Shown piece after piece: positions 28,387 to 63,345 of a DNA stretch of 64,000 nucleotides. Position numbers and translations under genes: made by a program. Source of the DNA: Thalassospira profundimaris. GTDB lineage: Bacteria > Pseudomonadota > Alphaproteobacteria > Rhodospirillales > Thalassospiraceae. Below the pieces are notes generated by a model. That model saw only the letters and a list, made by a program, of their open reading frames with translations, was not told the DNA's origin and ran no database searches. The first letter of the stretch is position 1, and each line of letters starts with the position of its first letter. The stretch lies in assembly GCF_003326795.1 (NCBI RefSeq), contig NZ_JPWI01000004.1, positions 1 through 64,000 of the forward strand, given 5' to 3'.

Positions 28387-29646
28387 ATGCGTCATCAGAA
28401 CACCCACCCATTCCGTTTCGCACTGATCGCGTCGGCGATGACTGTCGGCTTTGTCGCGTCAGCACGGGCTGAAAGCCCGGAAACCTTCCTGCATCGTCTT
28501 GCCGGACAAACGCCGGATATGGTGGAAGTGGCGAGTGCGGGGAACGCGCCCTTTGCCGATAAAGCGGCACTGGGCGAGGCGCTTTATTTCGATACCAATC
28601 TGTCGGCCAACCGTACACAGGCCTGTGCGACCTGTCATGAACCTTCGATGGCGTTCAAGGATCCACGCATGAATGTGGCCAATGGCGCCTTTTCTCTGGG
28701 GGACGATGGAAAAAGCCTTGGTGATCGAAATGCACCGATGGCAGCCTATGCGAAATTTTCACCGAAATTCCACGTGGGTGACGACGGCATTGCCGTCGGT
28801 GGCCAGTTCTGGGACGGGCGCGCAAGTGATCTTGCCGAACAGGCGGGTGGCCCGCCGCTTAACCCCATCGAAATGGGCATGAGTGACAAGGCAGGCGTGG
28901 TGGCGCGCCTTTTGGAAAATGACGACTATGTCGCCGGTTTCAAGGCGTTGTTTGGCGATGATATCTGGTCAGATAGTGACAAGGCCTATGGTGCCATGAC
29001 GCAGGCGATTGCGGCTTTTGAGCAAGGCGATGACTTTGCGCCGTTTGACAGCAAATATGACCGTTTCCTGCGCGGTGAATATAAAATGACTCCGGAGGAA
29101 GAACTTGGACGGGTTCTGTTCTTCTCGCAGCAGTTCACCAACTGCAATACCTGTCATATGCTCAAGACCAGCCCGACCGCCGAGGGGGAGACATTCACCA
29201 ATTATCAGTTCCACAATATCGGCGTGCCGCGCAACATTGCCACGCGCAAGGCCGTTGGAAAGGATACCGCCTTTACCGATAACGGGCTTCTGGACAATCC
29301 GGCGATTGATGATCCGGCCTATCGCGGCAAATACAAAACCCCGTCACTGCGTAATGTCGCAATCACGGGGCCTTATATGCATAACGGTGTGTTTGCGGAT
29401 CTGGAAACCGTGGTGCGGTTCTATAACAAATATAACAGCAAGGCCAAAGCCAACCAGACCAACCCGGAAACCGGCAAGCCGTGGGGCGCGCCCGAAGTTT
29501 CCGATACCATCTCGATAAAGGAGCTAGAGCAGGGTGATGCTCTTGATGACCAGCGCATCAAGGCTGTTGTTGCCTTCCTCAAGACCTTGACTGATGCACG
29601 ATATGAACCGCTTTTGGTCGAACACGAAAAAGCAGCCGCCAATTAG
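28387..29646 (+). CDS. Di-haem cytochrome c peroxidase family protein
   Basis: This 419-residue periplasmic protein has a signal peptide cleaved near ARAE and two c-type haem motifs, CATCH (about residue 78) and CNTCH (about 257), giving the two-domain layout of bacterial CcpA/MauG peroxidases. TPSLRNVAITGPYMHNGVFADLETVVRFYN is the family hallmark near the C-terminus. It would reduce hydrogen peroxide with electrons from small c-type carriers, though MauG-like oxidation is also possible. It ends in a 4-base stop-codon overlap with the convergent dehydrogenase gene. Confidence 0.92.
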   Translation: MRHQNTHPFRFALIASAMTVGFVASARAESPETFLHRLAGQTPDMVEVASAGNAPFADKAALGEALYFDTNLSANRTQACATCHEPSMAFKDPRMNVANGAFSLGDDGKSLGDRNAPMAAYAKFSPKFHVGDDGIAVGGQFWDGRASDLAEQAGGPPLNPIEMGMSDKAGVVARLLENDDYVAGFKALFGDDIWSDSDKAYGAMTQAIAAFEQGDDFAPFDSKYDRFLRGEYKMTPEEELGRVLFFSQQFTNCNTCHMLKTSPTAEGETFTNYQFHNIGVPRNIATRKAVGKDTAFTDNGLLDNPAIDDPAYRGKYKTPSLRNVAITGPYMHNGVFADLETVVRFYNKYNSKAKANQTNPETGKPWGAPEVSDTISIKELEQGDALDDQRIKAVVAFLKTLTDARYEPLLVEHEKAAAN

Positions 29647-55755: not shown

Positions 55756-56448
55756 TCAGAAGACGCGTGAGTATTTCGGGAAAACACGGATCTCGATGCG
55801 GCGGTTTGCCTCACGATTTTCTGCGATAGGGTTGCCGGAATCATCGCGGTTTGGAAGTTTGGGTTTGGTGTCGCCATAGGAAATGGCGCGCATCCGTTTC
55901 TGATCGGGATCAACGCCAAGGGCAGAAAAGAACCGAACCACTGCAATTGAACGTCCCGCCGCCAATTCCCAGTTTGACGGAAAACGCGGGGAACTGATCG
56001 GGGTATCATCGGTATGCCCGGTCACTTCAATCTGGAAACCCAGATAGCGCGGTTCCTTAAGCAGGTCGGCAACATCCTTGAGAAACAGGACAGCATCCTT
56101 GGTCAGGTTGGCTGAACCCGGCTGGAAGAACGAGCCGCTGCCCATTTCCATCAGAATGCCTTCATCATCCGTCGAAACATTGACCGCACTGTCCATCGCC
56201 ATGTTGAAGACGACGTCTTTGAGATCGGTTTCCAGAACCTGTGTCGGGCGGACAATATCGCGTTTGCCGATTTGCTCAGCAATACCGGCTTGCACCTTTT
56301 CAAAGACCGGCAACTCAACCTTGGAAAAGCTGACCAGCATGACAAAGAAGGCCATCAGAAGCGTGATGGCATCGGCGTATGTGGCAAGCCAGTCTTCGTT
56401 GACTTCTTCTTCTTCGACCTTGGGGATTTCCCGTCCGCGCCGTGCCAT
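55756..56448 (-). CDS. motB: MotB-type flagellar stator / OmpA-domain protein
   Basis: This 230-residue protein has one N-terminal helix (WLATYADAITLLMAFFVMLVSF), whose Asp carries protons or sodium in stators, and a C-terminal OmpA-like domain (EVTGHTDDTPISSPRFPSNWELAAGRS, EANRRIEIRV) that anchors the stator to peptidoglycan. It pairs with the MotA gene 11 bases upstream. Whether it drives a proton or sodium motor is not visible, so PomB is also possible. The start follows AGGGAAC. Confidence 0.93.
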   Translation of the reverse strand: MARRGREIPKVEEEEVNEDWLATYADAITLLMAFFVMLVSFSKVELPVFEKVQAGIAEQIGKRDIVRPTQVLETDLKDVVFNMAMDSAVNVSTDDEGILMEMGSGSFFQPGSANLTKDAVLFLKDVADLLKEPRYLGFQIEVTGHTDDTPISSPRFPSNWELAAGRSIAVVRFFSALGVDPDQKRMRAISYGDTKPKLPNRDDSGNPIAENREANRRIEIRVFPKYSRVF

Positions 56449-56459
56449 GATGGTGTTCC

Positions 56460-57254
56460 CTACTTCGCAGATTTGTCGATATTGAAGTGGATCGCAGGAT
56501 CGAGGAATGAATTCATCCGGTCCTGAATGGCGCGGGGTCCCTTGCGATCGGCCAGCATGATCAGGCCTTCGGCTATCAGGTAATTGCGAAACCGCATGAT
56601 TTCTTCACGTTGCTGGATCTTGCTTGCAGCAGGCATGAAAAAGAACCGGGCCGCAACAATACCATAAAGGGTCGTGATCAGTGCAATCGCAAGACCGGCC
56701 CCGAGCGACGTCGGATCATCTGCCATTTTGTCGAGCATGATCACCAGACCAACCAGCGTTCCGATCATCCCGAATGCCGGGGCCGCAGCCGCCATGCTTT
56801 TGAGGATCGAAACCGGCACAAGGTTGCGGTTAAAGGCATTATCGATGGCGTTGTGAAGCATTTCGGCCACTTCATCACCATTATAACCGGTAATGATCAC
56901 TTCCATCGCCCAGCCAAGAAACGGCTCGTCCTTGCCCACACGCTCTGCTTCCTGTTCCAGGGCATTGATGCCCTTTTTCTGCAGCAGATAGCCCCATTTG
57001 ACGACGCGGCCGACTTCGCCAGTCAATTGTCCACGGCCCATTTGCGGGGCACGGAAAATCTTGAAAATCAGTTTTAATGCAAGCAGTACATAGCGCGCCT
57101 CATAGGCAATAAAGGTCGCGGCAAGCGTGCCGCCAACCACCATCAGTGCGCTCGAAAGGCTCAAGAATACAAGATAGTTATCGGTCGAAATAAAGATCGA
57201 CCCGACAAACAATCCCAAACCAACCATAATGCCTAATATCGTCGTAAACGACAT
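56460..57254 (-). CDS. motA: MotA-type flagellar stator protein
   Basis: This 264-residue membrane protein has four helices (about 5-22, 33-50, 150-172 and 185-205) and a large cytoplasmic loop, the MotA/PomA layout. AAAPAFGMIGTLVGLVIML and GLAIALITTLYGIVAARFFFMP are characteristic. It forms the stator with MotB. ATG 57254 is chosen; a GTG at 57263 is also in frame. The pair precedes no other flagellar gene, but a chemoreceptor gene lies upstream. Confidence 0.95.
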   Translation of the reverse strand: MSFTTILGIMVGLGLFVGSIFISTDNYLVFLSLSSALMVVGGTLAATFIAYEARYVLLALKLIFKIFRAPQMGRGQLTGEVGRVVKWGYLLQKKGINALEQEAERVGKDEPFLGWAMEVIITGYNGDEVAEMLHNAIDNAFNRNLVPVSILKSMAAAAPAFGMIGTLVGLVIMLDKMADDPTSLGAGLAIALITTLYGIVAARFFFMPAASKIQQREEIMRFRNYLIAEGLIMLADRKGPRAIQDRMNSFLDPAIHFNIDKSAK

Positions 57255-57655
57255 TGTTCCCACAATCCCCCGGTGTCGTCATGGTCGGGCTTTTTACATG
57301 AAATCACCCAGCTTTATAATTAATCTATTAGTTTTTACGTAAGAATAGGACCCCAAAAGCTTGAAGTCTGGTTAATGCTACGCCCGGTAAAGCAAAAAAG
57401 CAGGGGTTATACCGGTGGTTGATGCAGGCTGATGTCCGGATTTCATCTGAATGCAGGGAACGCTGATCTTGTCGATAACGCTTGTCTACTACCTGGCTCG
57501 TTCGGGTAAATAGTCTCCCTGAGGGGTATTACCCATAAAATGAAGTTGGCAATTTGTCTGTCCCGAAACAAGCAAGGCGGGCATTCAAATGAAAAAAGCC
57601 TGCTACAAGCAGTAGCAGGCTTTTTTGGGTAGCTGTTTCAAATGGAAACTGCAAA
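57255..57655. other. Intergenic region between motA and the chemoreceptor
   Basis: About 400 bp. It holds the promoter of motAB and, at 57592-57626, the terminator of the chemoreceptor. A small CCTGAGGGGTATTACCC patch near 57518 shows weak symmetry. No gene is seen. Confidence 0.45.
57592..57626 (-). terminator. Terminator of the chemoreceptor gene
   Basis: AAAAAAGCCTGCTAC and GTAGCAGGCTTTTTT pair perfectly around AAGCA, giving T-runs in both directions. Confidence 0.92.
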
Positions 57656-59368
57656 TCACGTCGTTCGGATATCGACAAGGAACCGGTCAACTTCAGAACG
57701 CAGGTTATCCGACAAGGTTCCAAGTTCGCGGGCAACATCAAGAACCAGATGGGCTGCCTGATCCGTATCGGCAACCGTGTTGCTGACGCGTTCGATGTTG
57801 CTGCTGACTTCCTGGGTGCCAATTGCCGCCTGTTCGACATTCTGGGCGATTTCATCAGTGGCTTCGGCCTGTTCGCCAACAGCGGTGGAAATGGTGTTGG
57901 CCATCTCGGTGATGCGTGAAATCACCGCAGAGATATCGCCAATCGATGTGACGGTTTTACCTGTTTCTTCCTGAATGGCGGTGATCTGTTCGGCGATCTC
58001 GTTGGTGGCGCGTGCGGTCTGGTTGGCAAGGTTTTTGACCTCGGCTGCGACCACGGCAAACCCTTTGCCGGCTTCACCGGCACGGGCGGCCTCAATTGTC
58101 GCGTTCAGAGCCAAAAGGTTGGTTTGTCCGGCGATATCGCTGATCAGGGCGACAATTTCGCCAATCCGGTTTGCAACTTCGGACAGGCCCTGAACGGTTT
58201 CCGACGATTGCTCGGCTTCTCGTGATGCTTCGGCGGCAACCTGTGTGGATTGCTGAGCCTGTTCGCCAATGCGCGAAATAGATTCAGACAAATGATCGGC
58301 GGCATCGGCAACGGTGCGGACATTGACCGTCGCCTGTTCGGATGCGGCGGCAACCGTGGTTGCGCTTTTGCTTGCCCGGTCAGCGGATTCAACCAGCCCG
58401 CTTGCGGTTGACTGCATCTTTTGGGCTGAACTTGAAACGGCACTGACGATCTTGGCGATCACGCCCTCGAAGTTGCCGATGTGACGTTCCAGGCTTTTCA
58501 TCCGTTCGTCCCGGCGATGCGATTCTGCCTGTTGTTCTGCTTCCATCTGCTTTTTGGCAATGGCGTTGGTGCGGAAAATATCCACCGATTGTGCCATGCG
58601 CCCGATTTCGTCGTGACGGGTCAGGGCATTGATTTCGAAATCGGTATTGCCTTCGGCAAGGGCGGTCATGTCCCGTCCAAGGTCAGACAGGGGGGCTGTC
58701 ACAATGCGCGTAAGCAAGACGCGCATGCCGATGATGGTCGCAAGGGCAATGGCCAGACCGCCAATCACGATGCCGATCAGGATATTGTTGGTTTTCTCAC
58801 GTTCCGGGGCAACCGACAGGCTCGATGACAGGACGGCAATGACGTCACCTTTTTGTGCATCCATTGCGCCATGGCAACTAAAGCAGACTTCACGTTCCGC
58901 GCCCTTGGTTTCACCAAGGATAATCGGCATCGACATACGATAAGTGCCGTTTTCCGTATAGCGCCCGATAAGTTGGCCGGTTTCAATTGCTTCGATGTCG
59001 ATCTCGTCACGCGGGGCCTTGATCGGTTTGTCGCCATATTCCTTCATATAGGCTTGCGTAGTGGGGCCCCAGGCGGACCATAGTTCCCCAGGATAATCAC
59101 CATTACGGCTGTCAAACCAGTTGTTGAAAACCTGAATGCCGATGTCGTCGGCATCATCGGGACGGGCGGCCATAACATTGACAATCAGAGCATGAAGCGA
59201 GGTCAATTCATTCTCGCTCAGCTGTCGCAATTTGCTATCCATCGCTTTTTCTTCAACGATGGTCATCATCAACAGAGAAATAATGACAGTCGACGTAACA
59301 CCGAATGCGGATGCCCACATAAAGCGCTTGCGAATACCCATGGCGTTGAAGGCAGACAGAATTTTCAT
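57656..59368 (-). CDS. Methyl-accepting chemotaxis protein with a haem c motif
   Basis: This 570-residue chemoreceptor has a first membrane helix (about 18-38), a periplasmic sensor domain (about 40-185), a second helix (about 190-212), a HAMP domain and the signalling hairpin (tip [41 protein letters not shown]). The sensor domain contains CFSCH (Cys162, Cys165, His166), a covalent haem c motif, just before the second helix, resembling DUF3365/Tll0287-type haem sensors. It could detect redox state, oxygen, NO or other haem ligands. The start at 59368 follows GGGGAAG; the frame to 59494 lacks support. motA and motB lie next downstream. Confidence 0.9.
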
Positions 59369-59634
59369 GTTTCTTCCCCGGTGCGGTGACGGAAAGCAGC
59401 TTTTTGCATCAGCCGGTTTCGCGTTGTCCTGAATCGGTAAAACAATGCATGATCGTGAAAGTTGCGCCTTGATATGACTCAAGTCGATCTTCATATCGGG
59501 TCGTGTGTCTGATCTAGTTTACATTGTATCGGGGATTATCTTGCAACAAAACAGACAGTAGCGGGCTTGTTTCTGACCGGTGGAACGGGCATAACCACGC
59601 CAATGATGACATTTGAATGAAACAGGATTGCCTC

Positions 59635-59898
59635 ATGGCGCTTTCATATAGTGAAACCCGCAAAAAGCTTGATCAGATCACAGCCGAAATGTTGGGGCTG
59701 ATCCGAAAATATGATCTTGATGCTGCCAGTCCGTTTGATGTGATCGAGGTCGCGCGCACCAAGATCTCTGATCAGAACGACTATATCCGTTTCCTTGAGC
59801 TGTCGCTTGAAGGGCGGATTTATGGTGAATATGGTGATGCCCTGCAAAAGCAGATCGACGAAGAAGCCAAGGCACAACAGGCCAAACCGCTGAACTAG
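59635..59898 (+). CDS. Small helical protein of unknown function
   Basis: This 87-residue soluble protein is one helical bundle: MALSYSETRKKLDQITAEMLGLIRKYDL, a DVIEVARTKI segment, and a charged QKQIDEEAKAQQAK tail. No family is recognised. The ATG at 59635 follows AGGATTGCCTC; a 6-residue longer frame is less likely. It is monocistronic. Confidence 0.6.
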   Translation: MALSYSETRKKLDQITAEMLGLIRKYDLDAASPFDVIEVARTKISDQNDYIRFLELSLEGRIYGEYGDALQKQIDEEAKAQQAKPLN

Positions 59899-61619: not shown

Positions 61620-61740
61620 GCGGATCGTTTGACTTTGTGCCGATCTTTTCGAAATTTCCCAAATCTCTGTGCGGATGCTTGTTGGCATATGCCAATGGCC
61701 TTATGATGGCCGATATCTCCGTCAGACCATCGGGCCAAGC

Positions 61741-62283
61741 ATGAAGAACAAGCCGGTTCTCAGTACAGTTTTCGAAGCTGCTTTCAGATTTATCGATCTC
61801 GCGCTGAACGATAACGAATATTTGCAGCCACAGAAATTGCATCGCCTTCTGTATCTGGCGCAGGCCTATTACGGGGCGAATTATCACGGCAATATGCTGA
61901 TGCCCGCCATCTTCGTTGCCGAGGAATTCGGACCGGTCGAACCTAACCTTTATGCGGTGATGGAAGAAAGCCGTCCTGACGTACGTCTAAAGGCCATTGA
62001 TCCCAAAACGTCCCATTTCCTTGAAAGCATCTGGTCGCAATTTGGCCATCACACGGTTGAACATCTTAGCATGACCGTGCGCAACCATCCGCCCTTTACC
62101 AAGGCCTATAAGGAAGGGATCGGAACGATCATTCCCTTTGATGAACTGGTTGAGTTCTATGCCTCTGTTCGCAAAACGGCGACGACCCCGGAGGCAAAGG
62201 AAGTCGTGCGCCCGCGTGTCATGCGCTCGCACAAGGGCAAACCGGTTGCGACCACCGACTGGCTTCCACGCCGCATCAAATAA
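61741..62283 (+). CDS. Panacea (SocA-like, DUF4065) domain protein
   Basis: This 180-residue protein has the Panacea/SocA pattern: LQPQKLHRLLYLAQAYYGANYHGNMLMPAIFVAEEFGPVEPNLYAVM, with the K-L-x(2)-L-[LY]-Y-x-A-Q and GPV features. Such domains are adaptors or antitoxins (SocA helps ClpXP degrade the SocB toxin in Caulobacter) and occur in varied toxin-antitoxin and phage-defence genes. No toxin is recognised beside it. The start at 61741 matches homologue layout, but the ribosome site is weak; a longer frame starts at 61669. Confidence 0.72.
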   Translation: MKNKPVLSTVFEAAFRFIDLALNDNEYLQPQKLHRLLYLAQAYYGANYHGNMLMPAIFVAEEFGPVEPNLYAVMEESRPDVRLKAIDPKTSHFLESIWSQFGHHTVEHLSMTVRNHPPFTKAYKEGIGTIIPFDELVEFYASVRKTATTPEAKEVVRPRVMRSHKGKPVATTDWLPRRIK

Positions 62284-62301: not shown

Positions 62302-63345
62302 TTATTGCCCGGCTGTCATATCAGCACAGGGATCCTTGCGCAGGATGTCGTTGGTAAACCACAGGAAATCAATATCGTTGGGATTCCCGAAACGCTCAGC
62401 ATAGTCTTGCGGTTTTGGCGGATTGTCACTTGGATCATCCGCTTCGATCAGGCTGACGACGGCAATTTCATTCGGGGGCAGGTCAGGTTCAAACCGGGCA
62501 AGGTGCCAGGGAACGGCAATCGTGTTACGCACATGCATGGCACCGGCAATCAAAAACGCACCGTCAGATCCCTGTAAGGCAGTTGCATCGACCATTGCGC
62601 GGGCAAGTGACGCATCACGCGCAAACTGTGCTGTTGCGAACCCGTCGAGCATGCTTTCGGGCAGCGCATTGCAATGACTTTCTGCCATCTCGACGCGAAA
62701 CCGGGTCAGGATATCCTCAGGCATTTCAGGCAGATCAAGCTTTGTCGCCAACTGATCGGGCAGGGCTGATACGCCATTCGAAATGAGTGGCCGCAAAAGA
62801 TCGTCCGGCAGATTGCCTGCGATCATTTTCAGATCATTATCGCGGGCGACCTGGGCAATCGGGGCATAGTCATGCCATGACGGCCAGCCGCGCTCTTCCC
62901 AATCGAGTTCCTGCCCCAGATCAAGAACCGGCACGTCCTGCCACTTCTGATCAAGAGAAGCCTGTTGGTCGCGGGTAAACATTTCCCAGACCACAGCTCG
63001 GTGGCGCTGATCGGATTTGCTCAGTGCATCAATCAGGTGGGACTGATGATGGTGATGAACCGGATTGTCATGTTTCTCGCCGATCAGAACATATTTCCGA
63101 TCTGACAGCCGACGCACCAGTTCGTCAAACATGATGTATTCACCAGCCAGAAGATCAAATATCAGACCGGGTGCCGGGGGCAGGGCATTGATATCTGTTT
63201 CGTGCTGATGTGGTTTGCCATTTGTATCGTGGGCGGCAAGCTGGCCGGGCGCGATAACCGTAAACAAACCCGATGCCACCGCCAACACGCACACATTGCG
63301 TCGCATTGTTGCTGTGTAAAACCTTTGAACAGGTTGTTGTGACAT
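62302..63345 (-). CDS. ChaN-like haem-binding family protein
   Basis: This 347-residue exported protein has a signal peptide (LAVASGLFTVIAPGQLAAHD) and a ChaN-like domain: VLIGEKHDNPVHHHHQSHLIDAL, VVWEMFTRDQQ, LDWEERGWPSWHDYAPIAQVARDNDL and FLIAGAMHVRNTIAVP. ChaN proteins bind haem through a tyrosine and aid iron or haem uptake in some bacteria. The ATG at 63345 has no clear ribosome site. It is 34 bases from the end of the trans-sulfuration gene on the same strand, so they may share a transcript. Confidence 0.85.
   Translation of the reverse strand: MSQQPVQRFYTATMRRNVCVLAVASGLFTVIAPGQLAAHDTNGKPHQHETDINALPPAPGLIFDLLAGEYIMFDELVRRLSDRKYVLIGEKHDNPVHHHHQSHLIDALSKSDQRHRAVVWEMFTRDQQASLDQKWQDVPVLDLGQELDWEERGWPSWHDYAPIAQVARDNDLKMIAGNLPDDLLRPLISNGVSALPDQLATKLDLPEMPEDILTRFRVEMAESHCNALPESMLDGFATAQFARDASLARAMVDATALQGSDGAFLIAGAMHVRNTIAVPWHLARFEPDLPPNEIAVVSLIEADDPSDNPPKPQDYAERFGNPNDIDFLWFTNDILRKDPCADMTAGQ

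Follow-up and report, generated by a model that had tools for sequence, protein, structure and literature searches.

A chemoreceptor with a putative c-type haem Cache sensor domain, outside the PF11845 and PF21563 models, in a Thalassospira-type genome

Chemoreceptors that carry a c-type haem are already known, as DcrA of Desulfovibrio vulgaris (in a paper reportedly dated 1994), the Geobacter proteins GSU0582 and GSU0935, and the sCache_heme family have all been published. DcrA, which PMC8396549 names as the earliest haem-c sensor to be reported, is described there as a chemoreceptor with periplasmic haem c and an additional cytoplasmic PAS domain, and is said to sense changes in redox state and oxygen. 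The same source presents GSU0582 and GSU0935 (PDB 3B47 and 3B42) as redox sensors that also bind NO. According to its account of the GSU0935 crystal, the iron is bound by Met60 and His144 in one haem, and Met60 is said to be a ligand of the reduced haem that dissociates when the haem is oxidized and gives way to CO or NO. As reported in PMC3460858, the Geobacter sensors form swapped dimers. The sCache_heme family, also referred to as DUF3365 or Tll0287-like (PF11845), is defined in PMC12889525 by a Cache fold with a CXXCH helix between strands 3 and 4.

The chemoreceptor described here is encoded in a stretch of 64,000 nucleotides from a Thalassospira-type genome, hereafter the window. The first-pass annotation of this DNA had placed a CFSCH motif in the periplasmic domain of the receptor, shortly before its second membrane helix, and coordinates, reading frame and hydropathy all agree with that placement. 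The features discussed below are the following:

57656..59368, minus strand: methyl-accepting chemotaxis protein of 570 aa (reading frame, HAMP and MCPsignal domains, start site)
59369..59381, minus strand: ribosome-binding-site-like stretch CCGGGGAAGAAAC ahead of the ATG (by eye)
59252..59323, minus strand: first membrane helix (TM1), about residues 16-39 (hydropathy; AF2 helix 12-68)
58796..59251, minus strand: predicted Cache-type periplasmic sensor domain, about residues 40-191 (AF2 mean pLDDT 85; Cache matches)
59171..59173, minus strand: Met66 codon, helix-1 candidate for the distal haem ligand (78 of 79 rows have Met, the remaining one His)
58871..58885, minus strand: CFSCH, putative haem c attachment motif, residues 162-166 (reading frame; alignment conservation)
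58862..58864, minus strand: Met169 codon, three residues past the motif His (conserved in 79/79 rows)
58709..58795, minus strand: second membrane helix (TM2), about residues 192-220 (hydropathy 192-225; AF2 helix 187-217)
58565..58717, minus strand: HAMP domain (PF00672, E = 2.9e-6, over the cut-off)
57758..58264, minus strand: MCP signalling domain (PF00015, E = 1.9e-33, over the cut-off)
56460..57263, minus strand: motA-type stator gene (PF01618, E = 1.1e-21)
55756..56448, minus strand: motB-type stator gene (MotB_plug and OmpA)
28387-29646, plus strand: protein of the diheme cytochrome c peroxidase/MauG family (PF03150, E = 1.5e-46; two CXXCH)

The reading frame of the receptor starts at an ATG (59366-59368, minus strand) preceded by GGGGAAGAAAC, which by eye resembles a ribosome-binding site. 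Because this stretch sits before the ATG of the 570-residue frame, that start is preferred, and a 612-residue version of the open reading frame is probably over-extended. The protein is ordered as TM1, sensor, TM2, HAMP and MCPsignal, the last two identified with Pfam and the two membrane helices, which bracket approximately 150 periplasmic residues, predicted by hydropathy; this is the anatomy of a methyl-accepting chemotaxis protein. GSU0582 and GSU0935 share with it TM1, a periplasmic domain with one CXXCH, TM2, HAMP and MCP signalling domains, as well as a Met in helix 1. The receptor would also resemble DcrA, as the latter is described in PMC8396549, in being a chemoreceptor with periplasmic haem c, the PAS domain of DcrA setting the two apart.

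The minus strand at 58871-58885 reads TGCTTTAGTTGCCAT, which encodes CFSCH, and the motif sits approximately 26 residues ahead of TM2, on the side that hydropathy predicts to be periplasmic. Its Cys162 and Cys165 are the only cysteines of the whole receptor, and the chance expectation of a CXXCH, given the receptor's own composition, is 8.6e-5. As six CXXCH motifs occur in the stop-to-stop frames of at least 100 codons, genic or not, of the 64-kb window, the motif alone is weak evidence, and its conservation is the strong part. Conservation in relatives had been set beforehand as a check that could refute the haem proposal, and the motif was found in every row of two alignments. In the first of these, composed of the window protein and 27 relatives from a genome scan (one for each of 27 loci; 83-92% identity in Thalassospira, and 48-50% in the best segment for Magnetospirillum and other relatives mostly labelled Rhodospirillales), C162, C165 and H166 are invariant (28/28). 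The wider set of 79 rows contains repeats of the same or near-identical genomes and also takes in histidine kinases and one diguanylate cyclase; here the two Cys and the His are each present in 79/79 rows, repeats included, while the two inner letters of CXXCH vary, and Arg69 is likewise conserved in 79/79. Moreover, the 16 diverged rows have 12 invariant columns, which include the two Cys and the His of the motif as well as the Met of helix 1 and the one that follows CXXCH.

Sequence models of the known families do not recognize the sensor region, in which searches with Pfam and NCBIfam gave no credible match. Unlike members of PF11845, the window protein is not matched by that model at E up to 1; nothing in its own genome is, nor is any of the 28 near-alignment rows, even at E up to 10, and the model matches weakly only 6 of the 16 diverged rows (best E = 8.8e-5). 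PF21563 (Mcp40H-20_sensor) also leaves the window protein unmatched at E up to 1, with no match in its own genome, whereas a profile built from PF21563 members does find the Geobacter sensors 3B42 and 3B47. Since both models miss it, the receptor would represent a divergent haem-c Cache branch outside the two. A Piezo_cap match in 9 of the 28 near rows (best E = 3.8e-4) was taken as spurious.

Remote kinship to the PF11845 haem-c domains emerged from profile-profile comparison. When the 79 rows were compared with 30 PF11845 domains, a stretch of 40 columns around the motif matched at 96.8% (E = 2.5e-10). Masking CXXCH lowered this to 84% and to a score of 41, still twice the highest value obtained from 100 column shuffles (20.2), and the strands kept their register; the reversed profile scored 11. 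For the near family by itself, the masked comparison with PF11845 members gave only 50-56%. In addition, the wider profile, built from the 16 diverged rows, matched 45 of 249 genomes of the phylum and landed on PF11845 matches at at least 10 places, each time over the motif and what follows it; of its further matches, the seven loci that were read all keep CXXCH and a helix-1 Met. Against 28 PF21563-type domains, a whole-length comparison gave E = 3.6e-13 and, masked, a score of 52.9 (best shuffle 23.4), but it was set aside as proof of kinship, being carried by the membrane helices: without these and CXXCH the score was 16.2, within the shuffle range (best 20.8). Overall, these sequence comparisons support a kinship to the Tll0287 side but, on their own, leave one to the GSU side as no more than plausible. 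Searching PDB sequences with the sensor domain, by phmmer or by profile, returned no true relative (in one of these searches the best match was a lipoprotein cytochrome c, E = 1.8, over the motif), and using the domain of a GGDEF protein as a bridge to PDB sequences did not return one either. Proteins of other classes that look by eye GGDEF- or HD-GYP-like (L114-L120) also carry a related CXXCH sensor domain; four of them were scanned with Pfam, and only L117 exceeded a cut-off, that of PF21563.

The periplasmic part was modelled with AF2 from 27 rows. The best model reached a pLDDT of 85.4 and a pTM of 0.81, and the remaining four had mean pLDDT values of 85.3, 83.0, 64.4 and 48.0, two of them being poor. 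The predicted elements are strands at 60-65, 99-102, 107-115 and 141-150, with a helix at 125-132 that contains the motif (127-131 in the model), so that the CXXCH helix is placed between strands 3 and 4. The receptor thus has the conserved CXXCH, the predicted Cache fold and the position of the motif helix by which PMC12889525 defines sCache_heme domains and, as in that family, the domain precedes MCP, kinase or GGDEF outputs. When the periplasmic model was compared with solved structures by VIA-align, Tll0287 came first (Z = 10.3, rmsd 3.3, 131 aligned residues), tied within one unit with the haem-free WalK (Z = 9.8) and CitA (Z = 9.4), whose overall Cache fold the receptor is predicted to share; WalK lacks the expanded haem loop, according to the legend of figure 1 in PMC12889525. 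With the full model, including the membrane helices, WalK and KinD were found at Z 8-10, and Tll0287 was not among the best 50 matches listed. Foldseek gave no match at E < 0.001 for the receptor models; GSU0582, whose PDB entry is a swapped dimer, was listed second, at E = 0.011 and rmsd 16. DvhD, second in the first Foldseek list, was discarded as a haem lead, as it is called a dCache domain and the main text of its paper has no words beginning with "heme" in that spelling. Based on predicted fold, motif and anatomy, the receptor is best filed as a methyl-accepting chemotaxis protein with a putative haem-c Cache-type domain, and not as a member of PF11845 or PF21563.

By analogy with Met60 of GSU0935, Met66 ranks first among the candidates for a second ligand of the haem, and the single exchange of this residue for His, at locus L102, fits such a role. 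In Tll0287 and in a Pseudomonas putida relative, by contrast, a Cys acts as second ligand, as stated in PMC12889525. His59 was ranked behind Met66 as a distal ligand, being a His in 65 of the 68 near rows and in none of the 11 remote ones, 10 of which have a His four residues ahead of the Met. Among PF21563-type domains picked for having CXXCH, one helix-1 Met is invariant (28/28); it is level with Met66 in one profile alignment and one helical turn apart from it in another. This Met aligns to position 26 of chain 3B42, over a stretch of only 6.2 bits, and we number that position Met60 because the His of CQSCH is position 110 of the chain and His144 in PMC8396549. The spacing from Met to His is 100 in the receptor and 84 in GSU0935.

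A sample of 385 genomes from the class contained the sensor domain in 3, and a sample of 199 from the order contained it in 51, among them 22 of the 23 genomes that belong to the window's genus. The domain is a portable sensor; in the ten remoter proteins scanned, Pfam identified behind it histidine-kinase domains in eight (L093 with HisKA only), MCPsignal in one and GGDEF in one. In one family of the order, the domain is present two or three times per genome in 12 of the 20 genomes that carry it (L054-L058, L101-L107), a paralogue expansion. The domain also occurs at 48% identity in a metagenome-assembled record titled Stygiobacter sp. (L023); as Stygiobacter is not known as a proteobacterial genus, this may reflect transfer or a mis-binned contig.

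Regarding haem supply, the genome contains CcmE, a c-type haem maturation gene, and the cytochrome c peroxidase that the first-pass annotation had noted elsewhere in the window was recovered as the CCP_MauG protein listed above. The genome also has a strong cytochrome cd1 match (PF02239, E = 9.3e-149), which is read as NirS, and no NirK match reaching the cut-off.

Taken together, we consider it rather probable that the protein is a membrane-spanning chemoreceptor in which a single c-type haem is covalently attached to the periplasmic Cache domain and takes part in a Met66-linked redox or NO switch. Covalent binding of haem by the sensor is very likely, judging by sequence and model, and the cell probably steers by redox state or NO through this receptor. 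The predicted fold, the placement of the motif and the remote homology to known haem-c Cache sensors all support the original reading of the domain as a haem-c sensor. Every argument for haem is drawn from sequence and prediction, and the two cysteines might form a disulphide or bind a metal instead; nevertheless, all 79 rows end the motif with His, the motif is predicted to be periplasmic and a Ccm gene is present, and we regard a haem-free sensor as extremely improbable. Less remote, and still improbable, is a haem that is structural or merely tuning, the real ligand being a small organic compound of the sort that ordinary Cache chemoreceptors bind. The closeness of the predicted fold to WalK and CitA, equal to that to a haem protein, would suit such a ligand, but the haem motif and two Met are among the few positions that never vary, and kinases and a cyclase are driven by this domain too, which also holds for the published haem sensors described in PMC12889525.

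It is also conceivable, albeit unlikely in our view, that the receptor is specifically an NO chemoreceptor, with a haem that binds NO tightly and not O2, the cell steering by NO that its own nitrite reductases or those of its neighbours produce. A signalling-type sCache_heme protein of Pseudomonas azotoformans is reported in PMC12889525 to bind NO and to release it slowly, and the window's own genome has the putative NirS. Moreover, reductase matches (called as PF02239 at E <= 1e-140, a threshold of our own, or NirK over the cut-off) are commoner in genomes of the order sample with the domain (32/51) than in those without it (47/148), in a comparison that ignores relatedness. However, 12 of the 22 domain-bearing genomes of the window's genus have neither reductase and, together with the disregard of ancestry in that association, this led us to reject denitrification as the explanation of the domain's distribution; the conserved helix-1 Met would, in addition, compete with NO, as in the Geobacter sensors. 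Given the 12 genus genomes that carry the receptor but lack both reductases, we favour a switch driven by redox state, or by redox state plus NO, over a pure NO sensor.

In the mechanism proposed for such a redox or redox-plus-NO switch, Cys162 and Cys165 would bind the haem vinyls, His166 would be the proximal iron ligand, and the distal position would likely be taken by Met66 as long as the haem is reduced. Met66 would be displaced on oxidation of the iron or by a diatomic gas such as NO, and this would shift helix 1, which the AF2 model shows running on from TM1 without a break; by way of the membrane helices and HAMP, the movement could then reach the CheA-coupled hairpin and alter swimming. 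More tentatively, the relatives may form a separate haem-c Cache branch, mainly Rhodospirillales-type and including Magnetospirillum, in which the Met66/His166 pair is kept and the chemoreceptor is redox-switched. Should this hold, signalling haem-Cache domains would therefore not all be NO sensors, contrary to what the 2026 preprint (PMC12889525) proposes. The conserved helix-1 Met makes the choice between a redox switch and an NO sensor directly testable.

The receptor points to a haem-c chemoreceptor in a Thalassospira-type genome, and what is new is the divergent branch outside PF11845 and PF21563 together with its conservation pattern, a modest extension of the family. The presence of this branch in 51 of 199 sampled genomes of the order suggests that the two models report only part of the haem-c Cache family. 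In Magnetospirillum relatives, redox taxis could depend in part on such a receptor. For the oxygen-related receptors of M. gryphiswaldense, the passages searched of a 2025 study (PMC12442639) name protoglobin, hemerythrin, PAS and Cache receptors, and no haem-c receptor. No haem-c chemoreceptor of Thalassospira or Magnetospirillum is announced in the literature titles searched, which cover subscription journals thinly.

Concerning the neighbourhood, motA and motB, next to which the first-pass annotation had placed the receptor, lie downstream of it on the same strand, and they do so in 15 of 16 Thalassospira loci, motA being farther from the receptor in L001 and L002 than elsewhere. Among the 11 non-Thalassospira loci that the first search returned, some of them short, none had motA and motB downstream of the receptor. 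As the adjacency is seen in Thalassospira-type loci and not elsewhere, it adds little about the signal, and its use as a functional clue was abandoned. Other neighbours include a ChaN/Tiki-type haem-binding uptake protein approximately 3 kb from the receptor (62302-63345, minus strand; PF04187, E = 1.6e-48) and a protein with a SocA/Panacea-like antitoxin domain (61669-62283, plus strand; E = 1.4e-4, below the Pfam cut-off). Finally, Thalassospira-type loci have in common a 93-residue open reading frame next to the receptor (59617-59898, plus strand), which is 66-90% identical among them and has no Pfam match at E up to 0.001.
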